10,507 bases of DNA. Source: Gemmataceae bacterium (GTDB lineage: Bacteria; Planctomycetota; Planctomycetia; Gemmatales; Gemmataceae). Position 1 is the first letter of the stretch; each line of letters starts with the position of its first letter. The stretch covers positions 1 to 10,507 of the forward strand of contig JANWVS010000031.1 of assembly GCA_025056835.1 (NCBI GenBank). Reading direction: 5' to 3'. Made by a program: the position numbers and the translations under genes. This document shows positions 2,360 through 10,507 of this stretch, piece by piece. The notes beneath the pieces are model-generated. The model saw nothing but the letters and a program-made list of their open reading frames with translations. It ran no database searches and was not told where the DNA came from.

Positions 2360-2836
2360 ATGCACCATCGCTGTCTGGAAATCCGCGCGACGAAGTCGAA
2401 GGGCCGCGGCGTCTTTGCTACCGCTCCGATCGCCCGCGGCGAAGTGCTGGCGCACATGCAAGGATGGTTGGCGACAACGGCTCAACTCGACGAAAACTGG
2501 TTCGCTCTTCAGGTCGGCCCTGATTTGTGGCTTTGCTCCGACGGCACCAGCCTGGACGATTGCATCAATCACTCGTGCGATCCCAATGCCGGCTTTCGCG
2601 ACGGTCAACCGATTCTCGTCGCCTTGCGCGACATCGACGCCGATGAGGAAATTGGCTGGGACTACTCCACGGCGATGGCCGAACCGAACTGGTCCTTGGT
2701 CTGCCGCTGTTCCGCCCCGACTTGCCGGCGGATTATTCGTCCGTGGCCGGACCTGACTCCCCAGTTGCAGGAACGCCTCCGGCCGCATGCCCTGGCCTAT
2801 TTGCGCAACGATCGGGTGAAGCCGGCCGGGCGATAA
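2360..2836 (+). CDS. SET-domain protein (putative lysine methyltransferase)
   Basis: A compact 158-residue SET protein. It has the N-terminal KGRGVFA motif (14-20, the AdoMet-binding GxG region), the hallmark NHSCDPN (70-76), ALRDIDADEEIGWDYS (88-103) carrying the catalytic-type Tyr (Y102), and a post-SET-like Cys cluster CRCSAPTC (C115, C117, C122). C73 with those three Cys could form the zinc site seen in eukaryotic SET enzymes. SET enzymes transfer a methyl group from AdoMet to protein lysines; bacterial members are known, but their targets are mostly unknown. The protein has no signal peptide, so it should be cytosolic. The start lies 24 bases after the lipoprotein stop, so the two are probably co-transcribed, although their products should be in different compartments. 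It converges with the oxidoreductase gene, with only 24 bases between the two stops and no visible hairpin. Confidence 0.9.
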   Translation: MHHRCLEIRATKSKGRGVFATAPIARGEVLAHMQGWLATTAQLDENWFALQVGPDLWLCSDGTSLDDCINHSCDPNAGFRDGQPILVALRDIDADEEIGWDYSTAMAEPNWSLVCRCSAPTCRRIIRPWPDLTPQLQERLRPHALAYLRNDRVKPAGR

Positions 2837-3929: not shown

Positions 3930-6128
3930 CTATGACGCCCGCACGACGACGATCGTCGCGTTGTCCGTCGCACCGCGGAGGTTGACGAGGTTCAACAACC
4001 GCCGCGCTGCTTCTTCGGCCGAATAAGCCGCTTCACGCGTCAGCATCGTCTCGATTTCCTTGTTGCTGACGTGGTTCGTCAGACCGTCCGAGCATACCAG
4101 GATCCAATCGCCACGGGCCAGCTTGGCGCTGTACAAGCCTGGAATAACGTCCGGCTGCCCGCCGATCGCTTGCTGAAGCTCATTCTTGCGAGGATGGGTC
4201 TCGGCTTCGGCGGGAGTCAACTGGCCAAGCTCCACGAGTCGGTTGACGAGTGTTTGGTCGCGCGTCAGTTGTTGCAAGCGGCCGCGGTGCAGATGATACG
4301 TCCGACTGTCGCCGACGTGTCCGACCACGACATTGCGGCTGTCGATGTAAATTGCCTCGGCCGTGCAGCCCATCCCCCGCTTGCCGCGGCCCGGGGTGCG
4401 TCCTGCCGTGTAGACTTCTTTGTTGGCGTGCCGCAAACACGCTTCCAGTACTTTTTTGGTCGCTTCGACGTCCACCGGTTCGGGCGGCGGTTCCTTGCCG
4501 CTGAGGGCCGCAAACATCGGTTGCTGCAAGAGGAACTTGCGCATCTCCGAGATGGCCAGTGCTGCCGCCACTTCGCCGGCTTCGTATCCCCCCATGCCGT
4601 CGCACAACAGGATGAGAGCATATTCGTGCAGGTCGTCTTGGCGCGTCTCGACAGCGTGCAAAAATGCCAAGGCATCTTCATTGCCGGTGCGAACCATGCC
4701 GGTCGTCGTCCAGGCGGCCATATCAAACCGAACCTTGTCGAACGTCCTGCGGCAGAGCTTGATGGTGTCGATCAGTTCTGTGAATCCCGTGGGATCTTTC
4801 TTGGCAGCTTCGTCGGTCGGAAAACGTGTAAACAGATCCCGGCAGAACGTTTTGTTGATCAGACGCAAAAAAAGCGGATGCACGTCGGGAAATTTCTCGG
4901 TGATTTGGTTCGGCGTGAACTGGCGCTCGAAGTCCTTTTCCTCCAACGGATGATGGAGGTATTCCAAAGCGTACAGCATCGCGCCGACGCTATAGAGATC
5001 CGAACGGGCGTCGGCCGATTGCGGATCGAGAATCAACTCAGGAGCCGTGTAGAGCGTCGCGCGGATGGGTGGATTGGCAGGTAACGGCAAGGGCAAAAGA
5101 TCGGAGAGATCCGTCAGCACGGCGCGACCATTGGCGTCGACCGTTACGAGGTCGGGACGCACCCCCTCCAGGACCGCGCCGGCGCCGTGCAATGCTTGCA
5201 AACCTTCGCAAACTTGTTGCAGCCAGCCGTAGCGTTGATCGGCGCTGGCTTCGGGATCGTCCCAAGCGTCCCACAACGATCGGCCCTCCGGACGACTGAC
5301 GACTAAATACTCGGTGTCATTTTCGACGAAATAATCGACAACACTCGGTAAGGCTGCGGAGCCGGCCTTCGTCAAAACCTGCTTCTCCCAAGCCACGCCT
5401 GGCCATGTCGCCGACTCCGACGCCGCAATCGGGGCGGCAGCGGGAGCTGCTGCCGGAAGATTGTCGAACTCTGGCATGAACTCCTCTTCGGCGTCGGCGC
5501 TCTCGGCAACCTCGGGCAACGCTTCCGCCACTGGTAACAAGGCTTGAGCTACGATGGTGACGGGGCGCGGCGTGCCGTCGCCGTGGTCAAAGCCGGTAAA
5601 TCGGCTGACCCCCAGGCGTTCGCTGATAAGCGAGACGATCTCATAGCGGCCCAGCAGTCTGCCGGGCGGGTTCGTGAATGCGACCGCGGGTAGCCCGCCG
5701 CTTGGAGCCCCGCTCGGCCCCGCCGCCGCCATCGGTCCGGCATGCGGTGCGGCAAACAGCCATCCGCAATCATCGCAAAACCTTGCTCCCGCTTTGGCAG
5801 TCGCGCCACAAGCGGGGCAGGTCAACGACGGTGCCGCCGGCTCGGCGGGAAGCAACGTCACCGGTGGCGTAGGAACCGGCGAAGTCACGGCACTTGCCAG
5901 GGGCAAAGCGCTCGGCAAAGCCTCGGCCGCAGCCGCGGGAGTGGCCGCCGCTGCCGCTTGAACCTCGGCAGATTGGGCCGCCGCCGGCACCTGATCGAAT
6001 TCGAGGGGGATATCGCTTCCGTCGGCGTCGGTCTCCGGCGTCCCTTGCTCGTCCGCGGCGGCGTGGTTGTCGACACCGAACAATCGAGCCCACAGGCCAC
6101 CACTTTTTGGATTACGCGGATCGGTCAT
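3930..6128 (-). CDS. Zinc-ribbon / pseudokinase / PP2C phosphatase fusion protein
   Basis: A 732-residue modular protein. It has an Ala/Pro-rich acidic leader (1-100), a zinc ribbon (C104, C107, C118, C121), a degenerate Ser/Thr kinase-like domain (about 161-465) and a C-terminal PP2C domain (about 469-732). In the kinase-like part the ATP-binding Lys is Val (V193), HRDxKPxN reads LEGVRPDL (320-327), and DFG reads DLS (340-342). The structural APE (362-364) and SDLYSVG (376-382) survive, so it should be catalytically dead. An acidic, then Ala-rich, insert separates the beta3 and alphaC regions. The PP2C part keeps the metal-binding Asp set: NED (D485), DGMGG (D510), CSDGL (D681) and ATDN (D722), plus GHVGDSR around D607, so Mn/Mg-dependent phosphoserine/threonine phosphatase activity is expected. 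I chose the ATG at 6128; a GTG at 6236 would add 36 residues overlapping the kinase gene by 71 bases. No membrane helix is seen. The likely partner is the kinase encoded just upstream. Confidence 0.92.
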   Translation of the reverse strand: MTDPRNPKSGGLWARLFGVDNHAAADEQGTPETDADGSDIPLEFDQVPAAAQSAEVQAAAAATPAAAAEALPSALPLASAVTSPVPTPPVTLLPAEPAAPSLTCPACGATAKAGARFCDDCGWLFAAPHAGPMAAAGPSGAPSGGLPAVAFTNPPGRLLGRYEIVSLISERLGVSRFTGFDHGDGTPRPVTIVAQALLPVAEALPEVAESADAEEEFMPEFDNLPAAAPAAAPIAASESATWPGVAWEKQVLTKAGSAALPSVVDYFVENDTEYLVVSRPEGRSLWDAWDDPEASADQRYGWLQQVCEGLQALHGAGAVLEGVRPDLVTVDANGRAVLTDLSDLLPLPLPANPPIRATLYTAPELILDPQSADARSDLYSVGAMLYALEYLHHPLEEKDFERQFTPNQITEKFPDVHPLFLRLINKTFCRDLFTRFPTDEAAKKDPTGFTELIDTIKLCRRTFDKVRFDMAAWTTTGMVRTGNEDALAFLHAVETRQDDLHEYALILLCDGMGGYEAGEVAAALAISEMRKFLLQQPMFAALSGKEPPPEPVDVEATKKVLEACLRHANKEVYTAGRTPGRGKRGMGCTAEAIYIDSRNVVVGHVGDSRTYHLHRGRLQQLTRDQTLVNRLVELGQLTPAEAETHPRKNELQQAIGGQPDVIPGLYSAKLARGDWILVCSDGLTNHVSNKEIETMLTREAAYSAEEAARRLLNLVNLRGATDNATIVVVRAS

Positions 6129-6165: not shown

Positions 6166-7605
6166 TCAGCGGAGTCGGTTGCCGCAATGGATGCAAAACC
6201 GGCTGCCCATGCGATTGAATTTGCCGCAACTGGCACACGGTGCCGACGACTCCGTGAGCGGCTCCGCGCATTGGACGCAATACGGTGTTCGCACCTTGTT
6301 CATCGTGCGGCATTTGGGACAAGGCAGCTCGGTGGTCACGCATTGGCGTTCCAAATCAGCCTTGATCTCCTTGGCAGAAAAATAACGATCATTCACGTCT
6401 TCTGCAAGGTTGATACGAATGAGTTCGAAGAACCAGCGATACTGAGCCGGAAGCGGCGACTTTGGGTCAGCCAATTGCGCTTCCAACTCCTTGGCGGTGT
6501 AAAATCCTTCCGGAGCTTTGCCCGTCGCCAAGTGATACAGAGTAGCGGCAAGGGCGAACAGGTCGCTTCGCGCCTCAGGTTTGCCGACGATCTGCTCGGG
6601 CGGCGCGTAACCTTCCGTGAATACCCGGGTCTTGCCGGCCATACGCTCCTTTACTGTGCGGCCGAGGTCCCGGGCCGTGCCGAAGTCGATCATCTTGATC
6701 GATTTCTGATCCTCCAGCAGCATGATATTATCCGGCTTCAGATCGCGGTGGATGATCGGCGGCGTTTGGCTGTGCATCGTGTGCAGGACGTCGCAGATGC
6801 TTTTGCCCCATTCAATGACGTTTGCGATCGGAAACGGTTTGTTGCCGTTGGCTTCCATGATCTCGAGCAAGTCCTTGCCCTGGATAAATTCCATAACGAG
6901 ATGCGCGATCTGTCCTTTCTGGATAAAATCATAAACCTTTGGAACGATCGGCATGCCATCCAGAGAGCGCAGGATCTCGGCCTCGCGGCGAAAAAAATTG
7001 AGGCGGATGGCGAATTCCTGGGGATCGTTACCAATCATGTCTTTGATAGCCACGGGGCGATTGCCGGCCTTGGTGTCGGTCGCGGCGTACACCGCGCCGA
7101 AGCCCCCCATCTTCAGCAATCGGTCGAGCCGATAACGGCCTTCGAGTAACGTGCCGCCGGCAATCGGCAGGGGTTGCCCGCAGCGCTGGCAATTGCGCTC
7201 TCCCGGCGGATTCGCGACCCCACAAGCGGGATTGGCGCACAGGTTGGGCGGCCCCTCCGCTTCGGCCGGTCCGGTGTCGGCCTGAAGCATGAAGCCGCAG
7301 TCCATGCAGGCAATGGCCCCTTCGAGCAACGGCGTGCCGCAAGCGGGACACTTCGTCGGCGTCGCCGGCGGGGACGTAGCCGGAACGCGCGATCCATCAC
7401 CATCGGCGGGTCGGGACGCGACGGCAGCTGCGGCCGACACCGAAGACGACGACCCACCGGCAGAGGACGACGACGCCCTCGGCGGCGCCGCCGCAGGCAC
7501 CATGAACGGCTGTTTGCACGAGGGACAGGCCAGGCGCTTGCCAGCGACGTTGTCCGGCACTTGCATCGATTTCTGGCAATGCGGACAGCGAAGTACCTGC
7601 GGCAT
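6166..7605 (-). CDS. Multi-zinc-ribbon Ser/Thr protein kinase (Hanks type)
   Basis: A 479-residue soluble kinase with zinc knuckles at both ends. The N-terminal part has CPHC/CPSC (C7, C10, C27, C30), a Ser/Ala/Pro linker, a second ribbon (C86, C89, C100, C103) and a third (C123, C128, C139, C142). The kinase domain (about 157-420) is intact: glycine loop KMGGFGAV (165-172), ATP Lys K188, alphaC Glu near 208, HRDLKPDN (D288, N293), DFG (D307) and APPE (334-337). Thr residues lie in the activation segment (TVKERMAGKTRVFTEGY). The C-terminus is a double zinc ribbon (C429, C432, C443, C446 and C457, C460, C471, C474). It lacks the transmembrane helix and PASTA-type sensor common in bacterial kinases. 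The ATG at 7605 has GGAGGGG close upstream; a GTG at 7626 would add only seven residues. It lies 45 bases after the FHA gene and 37 before the phosphatase, so the three are likely made together. Confidence 0.95.
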   Translation of the reverse strand: MPQVLRCPHCQKSMQVPDNVAGKRLACPSCKQPFMVPAAAPPRASSSSAGGSSSSVSAAAAVASRPADGDGSRVPATSPPATPTKCPACGTPLLEGAIACMDCGFMLQADTGPAEAEGPPNLCANPACGVANPPGERNCQRCGQPLPIAGGTLLEGRYRLDRLLKMGGFGAVYAATDTKAGNRPVAIKDMIGNDPQEFAIRLNFFRREAEILRSLDGMPIVPKVYDFIQKGQIAHLVMEFIQGKDLLEIMEANGNKPFPIANVIEWGKSICDVLHTMHSQTPPIIHRDLKPDNIMLLEDQKSIKMIDFGTARDLGRTVKERMAGKTRVFTEGYAPPEQIVGKPEARSDLFALAATLYHLATGKAPEGFYTAKELEAQLADPKSPLPAQYRWFFELIRINLAEDVNDRYFSAKEIKADLERQCVTTELPCPKCRTMNKVRTPYCVQCAEPLTESSAPCASCGKFNRMGSRFCIHCGNRLR

Positions 7606-7650: not shown

Positions 7651-8586
7651 TCAAGCATCCGGCCGTCGTTTTTGTTTTTCGTAGAATCGCAACACGCTTT
7701 TACCCAGGCGGATCACGTCGCCTGACTGCAACGTTGTTCGGCCGTTCACTCGCTTGTCGTTGACAAACGACCCCCCCGCTGTTTGATTATCTTCCAGCAC
7801 ATAGCGTCCGTCGATCAAGAGGATTTGGGCATGTTGCTTTTCGACGCCTTGGTCGCCGAACAAGCCGATGTCATTTCCCTCCGCCCGACCGATCGTCGTT
7901 TTCTCCTTGGCCAAAATCATCTCCCGGCCAGCGCGAAAGCCTTGTTCGACGCGAATCCAAGCCTCTTTGAGGATGACCTGGGCCAGGCCGACCAGTAATC
8001 CGATGCAGCCGCCCAAGGCGACAAAACCGACAGCCGTCGGCGAACGCAACAGCGAAGTGTTTTTGTCGCTAAACAGAGCGGCCAGCCCAGCACGACAAGC
8101 GAGCACCAAGCCAGCGCCGCATATGCCCCCCACCGTCCCGCCCAGAACGCATTTGAACAATTTCGACCGCGCGCCTTTTTGATCCTTGCCGCGTGCCAAT
8201 CCTGCTAAAAAATCAAAGCAGCCCACCGACACACCGCACAGTAGCCCGACAATGGTCCAGGCTACGATAAAGACGTCGTCCCGCTGAAAGACGGCCACGA
8301 GCCAATGGCCGAACATACCGCTTATTAGTCCACCGATCGCCCCCAACGTCACGGCCACCAGCAAACGCAACAGGATCAGCCCCAGTCGATTCCAGGGGAC
8401 CACCCACAAGGCATCCACCAAGCCAAGCCCTAGCGCCACCGACAAGCCCAGGAACATGCCGATGAAGCCATTGCGCGCCAGCGATCCTGGCGATCCCGGT
8501 GCCAACAACATGCCCAAGAGCCAGCCGAAGAACGCCGCCCAGGCACCGATTAAGGCGCAATAATAAACGAAGAGCCGAAACGACAT
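7651..8586 (-). CDS. Six-helix membrane protein with C-terminal FHA domain
   Basis: A 311-residue protein. Residues 5-204 contain about six hydrophobic Gly/Leu/Val-rich helices (near 5-27, 38-60, 68-95, 105-128, 145-170 and 184-204) with no recognised family. Residues 213-305 form an FHA domain, a module that binds phosphothreonine peptides. It shows IGRAEGNDIGLFGD (232-245), GVEKQHAQI (247-255), LEDNQTAGGSFVND (264-277) and LQSGDVIRLG (286-295). Gly-Arg, the loop His and the C-terminal VN/GD elements are present. The usual Ser of the SRxH loop is Glu/Lys here, so phosphopeptide binding may be weak or altered. The FHA domain should face the cytosol, next to the kinase. The ATG at 8586 lacks a close Shine-Dalgarno (AGGGA is 12 bases away). 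The gene lies 33 bases after the BatD-like gene and heads the kinase/phosphatase cassette. It is inferred to be a membrane-anchored reader for that kinase. Confidence 0.92.
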   Translation of the reverse strand: MSFRLFVYYCALIGAWAAFFGWLLGMLLAPGSPGSLARNGFIGMFLGLSVALGLGLVDALWVVPWNRLGLILLRLLVAVTLGAIGGLISGMFGHWLVAVFQRDDVFIVAWTIVGLLCGVSVGCFDFLAGLARGKDQKGARSKLFKCVLGGTVGGICGAGLVLACRAGLAALFSDKNTSLLRSPTAVGFVALGGCIGLLVGLAQVILKEAWIRVEQGFRAGREMILAKEKTTIGRAEGNDIGLFGDQGVEKQHAQILLIDGRYVLEDNQTAGGSFVNDKRVNGRTTLQSGDVIRLGKSVLRFYEKQKRRPDA

Positions 8587-8619: not shown

Positions 8620-9657
8620 TTATGGGAATCTCTTGCCTTCCGCCAGGGCTTTCGACGGGCCGTCAGATAGCTCACGAAGAGCCGGCGCCAACGTCGGTCC
8701 CGCCACGGCCAGCTGAGCCGCACTCGCAACATTTGTGAGAAAGGTTCGCGCCGCGGCAGCCAGTTCCTCGGCAAGGTCGGGCGACGTACCAGGCGGCGCA
8801 AATTTGAGTCGATCGCAACGCTCCAAGAGGTCCGCCAAGGCAGCTCTCCCCTGTGCCGGGTCGAGGCACTGGTCCAGTGCGGCAAGCAATTCCACGGTCG
8901 TTCGCCGCCGGGCCGGCACACGGTACTTATCTTCGACGTAGCGGCGCAGCAAGGCCGCCAACAACGTGGCGAACTGGGCGTGCCGTCCTCGCGACAACAG
9001 CCGCCGTGCTTCGAGGCGAGCCAGGCGGGCAAGGGCCTTCACCTCGCACGACGGAACCTCGGTATGTTGGATTTTGCGCCGCCGCCACAGCCAAAACATC
9101 GCACCAACGACCCCAACGACGCCACCGGCAACCACCAGACTCACGAGGCTGCCGCGGTGCTCGGCCGGCGATGGGGCCGCCAACGTCTCGATGGCCGTGA
9201 TGTCCCGGGCCATGGCGGCATTCGGTTGGTCGAGCGTGCTGGTCACCCGAATGGGGATCGGTTGCCACCGGATCGATCGCCAGGTGCCGCCGTCGCTCCG
9301 GACCTTGATCGGCTCCAGTATCAGCAAGGCCTCGCCCGGCGCCATCGGTTCGACTAACAGGGTGATCGACCACTGCCGCTGGGACGAGCGCGCCGGGCCG
9401 GCCGGCCGTACCAGCCAGGGACTGTTGGTCCAGCGCTCCGGCGGCAACACCTCCAGCACATCGTTCGCGGTCGCTTCCAGAGTGAGGGTGATTACGTCAG
9501 CAAAAGCGATGGCCAGTCGTCCGGCAGCGTCAGGCACGGTTGGCGATTTCAGCGTTACCCCGTCGACGCACTGCAGGATGGTCGGCTGATCGACTCCCGC
9601 CCACGCCGATGCCGCGGCCAAAACAACAACCGCCACACTGCCGCCCAACGTTCTCAT
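8620..9657 (-). CDS. BatD/DUF4381-like membrane protein of a MoxR-associated cluster
   Basis: A 345-residue protein. It has a signal peptide (1-20, cleavage near AWA-G), a beta-rich extracytoplasmic domain (about 25-150), one membrane helix (169-191) followed by WRRRK, and a cytosolic helical tail. The tail contains the DUF4381/BatD-type segment LLAALLRRYVEDKYRVPA (232-249) followed by RRTTVELLAAL and LLERCDRLKFAP (277-288). Such proteins sit between DUF58 and VWA genes in MoxR clusters and are thought to link the envelope VWA proteins to cytosolic partners; the biochemical role is not established. The ATG overlaps the DUF58 stop (ATGA, 9654-9657), which indicates tight coupling. The usual next genes, the VWA pair, are not adjacent but lie 7.3 kb downstream on the same strand. 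Family assignment rests on the tail motif, topology and neighbours. Confidence 0.85.
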   Translation of the reverse strand: MRTLGGSVAVVVLAAASAWAGVDQPTILQCVDGVTLKSPTVPDAAGRLAIAFADVITLTLEATANDVLEVLPPERWTNSPWLVRPAGPARSSQRQWSITLLVEPMAPGEALLILEPIKVRSDGGTWRSIRWQPIPIRVTSTLDQPNAAMARDITAIETLAAPSPAEHRGSLVSLVVAGGVVGVVGAMFWLWRRRKIQHTEVPSCEVKALARLARLEARRLLSRGRHAQFATLLAALLRRYVEDKYRVPARRRTTVELLAALDQCLDPAQGRAALADLLERCDRLKFAPPGTSPDLAEELAAAARTFLTNVASAAQLAVAGPTLAPALRELSDGPSKALAEGKRFP

Positions 9658-10507
9658 CGGTGCCCCATGCGCCGCTGCCGCAAGGCAAAGAACCGCACTA
9701 GCGAATCAACGTGATCGCCGGCGGTCGACACAGCCAACCAATCGGCTTGAGCGGCACCAACGGCCTGTCGTACCGCGTTTGTCCGGGCCAGGGCGGCATG
9801 TCGATAGGCAGCTTGTACTTCGGGATCGGAGCTGTCGACCAAGAGCGTCGCACCGGTTTCGGCGTCGCGGACAGACAACAACCCGACAGCCGGCAGTTCG
9901 GTCTCAAATACGTCCTCACAAAAGACCGCAATCACGTCGTGCCGCCGCGCCGCCCGTCGAAGGGCCTTGTCGTAGCCCTGGTCGTGAAAATCGCTGATCA
10001 AGAAGACGATCGCGCGACGACGCAAGATCCGGTTGACAAAGTCCAAGCCGACACGGAGGCTCGTCCCGGTCCGCGTCGGCTCGAAAAGCCAAAGATCGCG
10101 GAGCAGCCGCAGCGCATGTCGAGTCCCCTTGCGCGGCGGCACGAATTTCTCAACGCGATCGCTGAGGGCGACCAGACCCACTTTGTCATTGTTGTTGAGG
10201 GCGCAAGCGGCGATCAACGCTCCAATCTCGGCCGCCACGGCGCGCTTGGTCGTGGCCTGCGTTCCGAAGTCCTGACTGGCACTGAAGTCCACAATCAGCA
10301 TCACCGTCAATTCGCGTTCTTCGATGAACCGCTTGACAAACGGATGGCCCATGCGGGCCGTGACGTTCCAGTCGATACTGCGGATGTCGTCGCCCGGCTG
10401 GTATTCACGAACCTCCTCGAACGCGATGCCGCTTCCCTTGAAAACACTGCGATAAGCGCCGCCCAGCCGATCTTCCACGGCCCGCCGCGCTTGTAATTGC
10501 AAACGGC
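9654..10507 (-). CDS. DUF58 domain protein, MoxR-associated (5' end outside window)
   Basis: The reading frame is open to the right edge. A TTG at 10502 is not a credible start, because the upstream codon continues in frame and the family normally has some 15-20 further residues before this point. The DUF58 signature is unmistakable: YRSVFKGSGIAFEEVREYQPGDD, then IRSIDWNVTARMGHPFVKRF (10383-10326), then a VWA-like core with IVDFSASQ (D codon at 10287-10289). A Thr of GTSLR and D of LISDFHD follow, so a metal site like that of the VWA family seems present. There are no membrane helices, so the protein is cytosolic. DUF58 proteins are nearly always encoded next to a MoxR AAA+ ATPase, and I expect that gene to lie just beyond the right edge. 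It overlaps the BatD-like gene by four bases. Confidence 0.94.
   Translation of the reverse strand, partial: RLQLQARRAVEDRLGGAYRSVFKGSGIAFEEVREYQPGDDIRSIDWNVTARMGHPFVKRFIEERELTVMLIVDFSASQDFGTQATTKRAVAAEIGALIAACALNNNDKVGLVALSDRVEKFVPPRKGTRHALRLLRDLWLFEPTRTGTSLRVGLDFVNRILRRRAIVFLISDFHDQGYDKALRRAARRHDVIAVFCEDVFETELPAVGLLSVRDAETGATLLVDSSDPEVQAAYRHAALARTNAVRQAVGAAQADWLAVSTAGDHVDSLVRFFALRQRRMGHR

Follow-up and report, generated by a model that had tools for sequence, protein, structure and literature searches.

A protein of 732 amino acids, encoded at 3930..6128 on the minus strand of the window (the whole analysed stretch of 10,507 nucleotides from a Gemmataceae bacterium, contig JANWVS010000031.1 of assembly GCA_025056835.1), is best explained as a PP2C phosphatase whose N-terminal kinase domain lost catalysis early in Gemmatales and was kept as a binding and regulatory module; the probability of this reading was put at roughly 0.6.

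Architecture of the fusion protein

The reading frame starts with the ATG at 6128 and was aligned with 44 orthologues. Orthologue counts refer to these 45 proteins (the window protein and 44 others, some of which are cut at contig ends), with two partial matches (genomes G080 and G018) and two divergent proteins (G021 and G093) left out. All features of the gene lie on the minus strand. An Ala/Pro-rich N-terminus is followed by a zinc ribbon (CPACG...CDDCG, residues 102-125, 5754..5825), to which Pfam Zn_ribbon_3/DZR matched under the cut-off and whose CxxC...CxxC pattern occurs in 40/45 orthologues. The pseudokinase domain (residues 158-445, 4794..5657) was delimited with Pfam (Pkinase over residues 245-442, at 43 bits against a cut-off of 31.7), hhalign against an intact kinase family, and AlphaFold2 with Foldseek. 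Its beta3 and alphaC are separated by a poorly conserved insert (about residues 197-241, 5406..5540; residues 197-240 have a mean pairwise identity of 0.205), which was modelled at a pLDDT below 50 over most of its length. A linker helix predicted by AlphaFold2 (residues 449-463, 4740..4784; mean pairwise identity of the linker region, residues 446-466, 0.469) joins the pseudokinase to the PP2C domain (residues 467-731, 3936..4730), which was identified by Pfam (PP2C, 42.9 bits, cut-off 20.3), structure and profile matches, and the alignment.

Loss of catalytic residues in the kinase-like domain

The register of the kinase-like domain was taken from a profile-profile alignment with the family of the intact kinase encoded by the neighbouring gene (probability 99.4-99.5%). 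In this register, VAIK is replaced by VTIV, HRDLKPDN by LEGVRPDL, and DFG by DLS, with V193 (codon 5550..5552) at the place of the VAIK Lys, L320-E321-G322 (5163..5171) at the HRD place with G322 for the Asp, L327 for the catalytic-loop Asn, and D340-L341-S342 (5103..5111) at the DFG place. Judged by the residues of active Hanks-type kinases, the Lys, the HRD Asp and the catalytic-loop Asn are missing and the DFG Asp (D340) is present. The VAIK Lys occurs in none of the 45 orthologues, and the HRD Asp (genome G014) and the catalytic-loop Asn in one each; Glu replaces the HRD Arg in 41/45, and the first-position glycine of the glycine loop is gone. The protein of G014 has an Asp at the HRD place, yet is without Lys, His, Arg and Asn, and the divergent proteins of G021 and G093, inspected by eye, lack the HRD Asp and contain APE and the PP2C motifs. 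Because the orthologues share the losses of Lys and HRD, these are more than a chance feature of one sequence, and a sequencing artefact was ruled out on the same ground.

The initial annotation had described the ATP Lys as replaced by Val and the HRD Asp as lost. Both statements hold, the latter residue being gone in 44/45 proteins, and homologues of this architecture do not commonly retain either one. Its further statement that DFG is lost went too far: Phe and Gly are changed in the window protein and the Gly is found in 7/45 orthologues, but the metal-binding Asp stays in 41/45. The APE (E364; Glu in 45/45) and SDLYSVG elements, described as structural, are retained in the window protein.

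The residues that remain bear on an alternative reading, in which the domain binds nucleotide in an atypical manner, via the DFG Asp, the alphaC Glu (34/45) and arginines close to what was once the glycine loop (position 171 in 33/45 and position 176 in 36/45), and acts either as a switch gated by nucleotide or as a transferase that does not phosphorylate. Arginine-based ATP binding has been modelled with AlphaFold3 for the DLHK pseudokinases, as described in the accessible text of a review (PMC12599244). However, a conserved substitute Lys was sought in residues 155-264 and no position carried Lys in more than 19/45 proteins, the first glycine-loop glycine and the catalytic-loop Asn are absent as given above, and families divergent in all three motifs are, in the same accessible text (PMC12599244), nearly always without ATP binding, although the DFG Asp is kept here. 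This reading was considered unlikely. A WNK-type relocated catalytic Lys was ruled out, as residues 155-264 hold no conserved Lys.

Predicted fold and phosphatase half

Residues 150-466 were modelled with AlphaFold2 from an alignment of four orthologues, other kinases being excluded, which gave a pLDDT of 75 and a pTM of 0.75, with low confidence in the beta3-alphaC insert. In a Foldseek search of this model against the PDB, all 50 matches listed were protein kinases (E 6e-11 to 1e-9; 297-388 alignment columns, covering most of the domain), with moderate TM-scores of 0.48-0.59 by query length; among the matches listed were PknS, PknB and the kinase-homology domain of Rv3910, which we take to be MviN. 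The predicted model is bilobal, and the assumption of a kinase fold, on which the initial annotation depended, was borne out by these matches. Together with the hhalign match to the intact kinase family, they rule out a non-kinase fold.

The aspartates of the five PP2C motifs, which we take to be metal-site residues, were all found, as had been claimed, with D485, D510, D607 and D681 present in 45/45 orthologues and D722 in 44, the remaining protein having a gap. A model of residues 96-732 (pLDDT 74, pTM 0.62) matched the PP2C structure 2pk0 best in Foldseek (E 6e-22), a profile match to 2pk0 was obtained at E 2.4e-57, and the domain resembles the structures of Stp1, PphA and PstP most closely. 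NCBIfam NF033484 (Stp1/IreP equivalog) scored 207.9 bits, under its cut-off of 230. By its intact motifs, the fusion is a PP2C-type Ser/Thr phosphatase with predicted activity.

Distribution and selection

Matches to the fusion were found in 49/102 Gemmatales genomes (E up to 1e-60), and in a sample of the phylum 2/294 genomes matched, namely the window's own and one matching the PP2C domain alone; three candidates were scored per genome in the phylum search and 11 and 15 in the order searches for the fusion and the kinase, respectively, and several genomes are incomplete. Both sampled families of Gemmatales share the loss of catalysis, which suggests that it took place early in the order.

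Ratios of dN/dS were determined by NG86 for same-genus pairs and the pair of the window with G003, using finite values only. The pseudokinase ranged over 0.03-0.28, PP2C over 0.01-0.16 and the N-terminal 100 residues over 0.125-0.62; single ratios are rough, since dS is often above 1 and in some cases was not computable. Close pairs gave pseudokinase ratios of 0.15-0.18 (G012-G096 and G016-G084) and 0.07-0.09 (six pairs of genus g19). The pseudokinase is constrained, as follows from these values: purifying selection acts on the dead half, more weakly than on PP2C and in general more strongly than on the N-terminal tail. The selection on the dead half proposed in the initial annotation, where it was taken to suggest a pseudokinase scaffold or allosteric regulator, is thereby supported, and recent decay is ruled out. 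Several positions of the domain are conserved in at least 41/45 proteins (E321, at the place of the HRD Arg, P346, P350, W242, P243, W247 and W289).

If the kinase-like domain were a degenerating remnant of a kinase-PP2C fusion with no current role, its faster evolution relative to PP2C would be accounted for. The purifying selection, the predicted fold and the conservation of E321, P346, W242, W247 and W289 argue against such a remnant, as does the open frame that covers both domains in all 45 proteins extracted, even though the genome searches flagged one stop inside the match in G025 and in G007. This explanation was regarded as very improbable.

Gene neighbourhood

The gene next to the fusion (6166..7605, minus strand, likely ATG at 7605) encodes a zinc-ribbon Ser/Thr kinase that has kept VAIK, HRDLKPDN and DFG intact and whose catalytic residues are invariant in 18 aligned orthologues, and the third gene of the cassette (7651..8586, minus strand) encodes a membrane FHA protein, identified by Pfam FHA and alignment. 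Of 37 stretches carrying the fusion, 28 have the kinase orthologue upstream on the same strand and 19 have an FHA gene before the kinase, counted over stretches of which several stop at contig ends, some before the FHA gene, and two (L035 and L179) seem to be one contig. The intact kinase noted beside the fusion in the window is accordingly its usual neighbour. Across the order, the kinase was found in 41/102 Gemmatales genomes, all 41 of them among the 49 with a fusion match. The eight genomes with a fusion match and no kinase include three whose matches are partial or at contig ends (G017, G018 and G080); in the remaining five (G005, G007, G008, G014 and G030) no kinase orthologue was found.

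The neighbouring kinase is probably the likeliest partner or substrate of the fusion. The presence of the fusion in five genomes in which no kinase orthologue was found counts against a strict kinase-docking role, and because of these genomes, targeting to a substrate or to the membrane is a live rival. The domain would then mainly recruit substrates or use the FHA membrane protein as an anchor for the phosphatase, with the kinase as a pathway partner without contact. A precedent exists in the contact of the FhaA FHA domain with the Rv3910 kinase-homology domain (PDB 3oun, as far as the accessible record of this solved structure goes). On the other side, the kinase is a commoner neighbour than the FHA gene (28 versus 19 of 37, with some stretches ending before FHA), and the FHA domain of the cassette is without the SxxH Ser. 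We hold recruitment or anchoring as the main role to be possible, at clearly lower probability than the broader reading of a binding and regulatory module. In 14 aligned orthologues of the FHA protein, the SxxH Ser is replaced by Glu or Asp (VEKQHA), with no change at the GR Arg and the Asn; assuming the usual roles of these motif residues, phosphothreonine binding may be altered.

Among the aligned fusions, all 39 that come from kinase-carrying genomes have the zinc ribbon and 5/6 of the others lack it, the sixth (G017) sitting at a contig end. On the tree, this co-occurrence needs 1-3 changes with one supported independent pair, and the link between zinc ribbon and kinase is therefore confounded by descent; it is contradicted by G021 and G093, which have the kinase next to a divergent fusion-like protein without zinc ribbon. 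A joint loss of both was rejected, the counts being suggestive and not independent on the tree. Highly divergent fusion-like proteins without a zinc ribbon lie beside the intact kinase in genus g22 (L163:7938-9941, minus strand, and L164:1187-3298, plus strand).

The idea that the pseudokinase arose as a tandem duplicate of the neighbouring kinase was unsupported: in the window's genome, the pseudokinase profile ranks other kinases above the neighbouring one, which it meets over the zinc ribbon and N-lobe only. Around the cassette, the window carries DUF58-DUF4381 genes (1-1341) and BatA/vWA genes (8620-10502), both on the minus strand, and a small SET-domain protein (2360-2836, plus strand; Pfam 45.9 bits, cut-off 22.4). 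None of the flanking genes (DUF58/DUF4381, Ldh_2, SET and BatA/vWA) was matched in any of the 37 stretches at E up to 1e-8. Defence-system models matched the kinase part only as generic kinases and were discarded.

Distant relatives on plasmids

A tblastn search over plasmids matched 210 records, and the nine best-ranked places together with H30 extend into the kinase-like region. Six of these ten places were examined (L183-L188; H3, H7, H8 and H30 were left out). The plasmid hosts are Nostoc, Trichormus, Tolypothrix, Gloeothece and Deinococcus. The six phosphatases resemble the window fusion in that a region like a kinase C-lobe precedes a PP2C domain that looks intact and that FHA and kinase genes lie close by; they differ in that the kinase part is far more degenerate and vWA genes lie nearby. 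By eye, the HRD Asp is absent in 5/6, the Deinococcus protein having TDLDP at this place; Pfam Pkinase matched 1/6, under the cut-off, and the zinc ribbon was not found in the six proteins. Comparison with the Gemmatales family by hhalign gave 100% over residues 273-732, a value driven mostly by PP2C. The plasmid stretches are annotated with FHA, vWA and Ser/Thr kinase in 5/6 each. Plasmid-borne kinase-PP2C genes accompanied by vWA, FHA and kinase genes may represent a broader module for signalling or conflict.

NCBIfam NF011149 (PRK14559, serine/threonine phosphatase) aligned to residues 234-731 of the window protein, i.e., the pseudokinase C-lobe and PP2C, at 119.1 bits, under its cut-off of 374. 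It matched 29/29 members of set A1 and 6/14 control genomes, Synechococcus elongatus included, with a score over the cut-off in one of the latter.

Comparison with known systems

Fusions of the Pseudomonas type, in which PP2C is tethered to a Hanks-type kinase with PP2C first (PMC1262709, accessible text), share with the window protein a single polypeptide with a PP2C and a kinase domain; in the window protein, the order is reversed and the kinase is dead. Genome G036 of the window's family encodes a fusion with N-terminal PP2C and C-terminal kinase that has VAVK, HRDLKPEN and DFG (L190:1593-3476, plus strand). An active version with the kinase N-terminal to PP2C was not among the 45 aligned proteins, none of which has the Lys.

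MviN/Rv3910 and the ActPs3 pseudokinases (PMC12599244, accessible text) share with the window protein a bacterial Hanks-type pseudokinase tied to an FHA protein. The pseudokinase of the window protein differs in sitting N-terminal to PP2C; MviN is a membrane protein that is not known to carry a phosphatase domain. The review lists seven bacterial pseudokinase families (ActPs1-3, GLW, CP1, DYD and DLHK), few bacterial pseudokinases having a known role, and makes no mention in its available portion of PP2C, zinc, planctomycetes or Gemmat (PMC12599244). Actinobacterial GAP1-N2 systems include gene groups of zinc-ribbon kinase, PP2C and vWA, and are alike in that a zinc-ribbon kinase gene adjoins a PP2C gene; in contrast to the window, their kinase and PP2C, each described as catalytically active, are separate genes, and inactive kinase domains in these systems are other effectors (PMC7159879, accessible text). 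In RsbU, partner binding by the N-terminal domain and the linker switches the PP2C domain, which resembles the window protein as an analogy of mechanism, namely control of PP2C by an N-terminal domain via a helical linker, although the regulatory part of RsbU is without a kinase-like domain (PMC12143880, accessible text). HltA was rejected as a relative, being a GAF-PP2C protein outside this fusion family as far as its accessible description goes (PMC9430166).

Proposed function

By analogy with RsbU and the Rv3910 domain, the pseudokinase may regulate or target PP2C. Under the preferred reading of a PP2C phosphatase with a retained binding and regulatory module, the pseudokinase would contact one of three partners: the kinase encoded next to it, the FHA protein of the cassette or a substrate. 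Such contact would position the phosphatase and set PP2C activity through the helical linker, and the cassette could work as a single kinase/phosphatase switch, with the fusion counteracting the kinase. This reading is weakened by the clustering of the co-occurrence by descent, by the five genomes with the fusion in which no kinase orthologue was found, by the kinase-bearing G021 and G093 with their divergent proteins that have no zinc ribbon, by the missing SxxH Ser of the FHA partner, and by the higher scores that the pseudokinase profile gives to other kinases of the window's genome. A bolder version, which we put forward with considerable doubt, makes the pseudokinase the regulatory subunit of a phosphatase opposing its active neighbour in one membrane-anchored complex, with PP2C gated by kinase contact or by nucleotide (via the kept Asp and the arginines); the distant plasmid versions would then make this a recurring self-balancing design in bacteria.

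Searches of the open-licence literature turned up no paper describing a family of bacterial proteins that join a pseudokinase to PP2C. The best-known models of regulation by pseudokinases come from eukaryotes. With a conserved pseudokinase joined to an enzyme of opposite activity, and usually an intact kinase beside it, the fusion is a simple test system, comprising a cassette of three genes with natural kinase-less variants as controls, and it would reveal whether a dead kinase fold can directly regulate a phosphatase.
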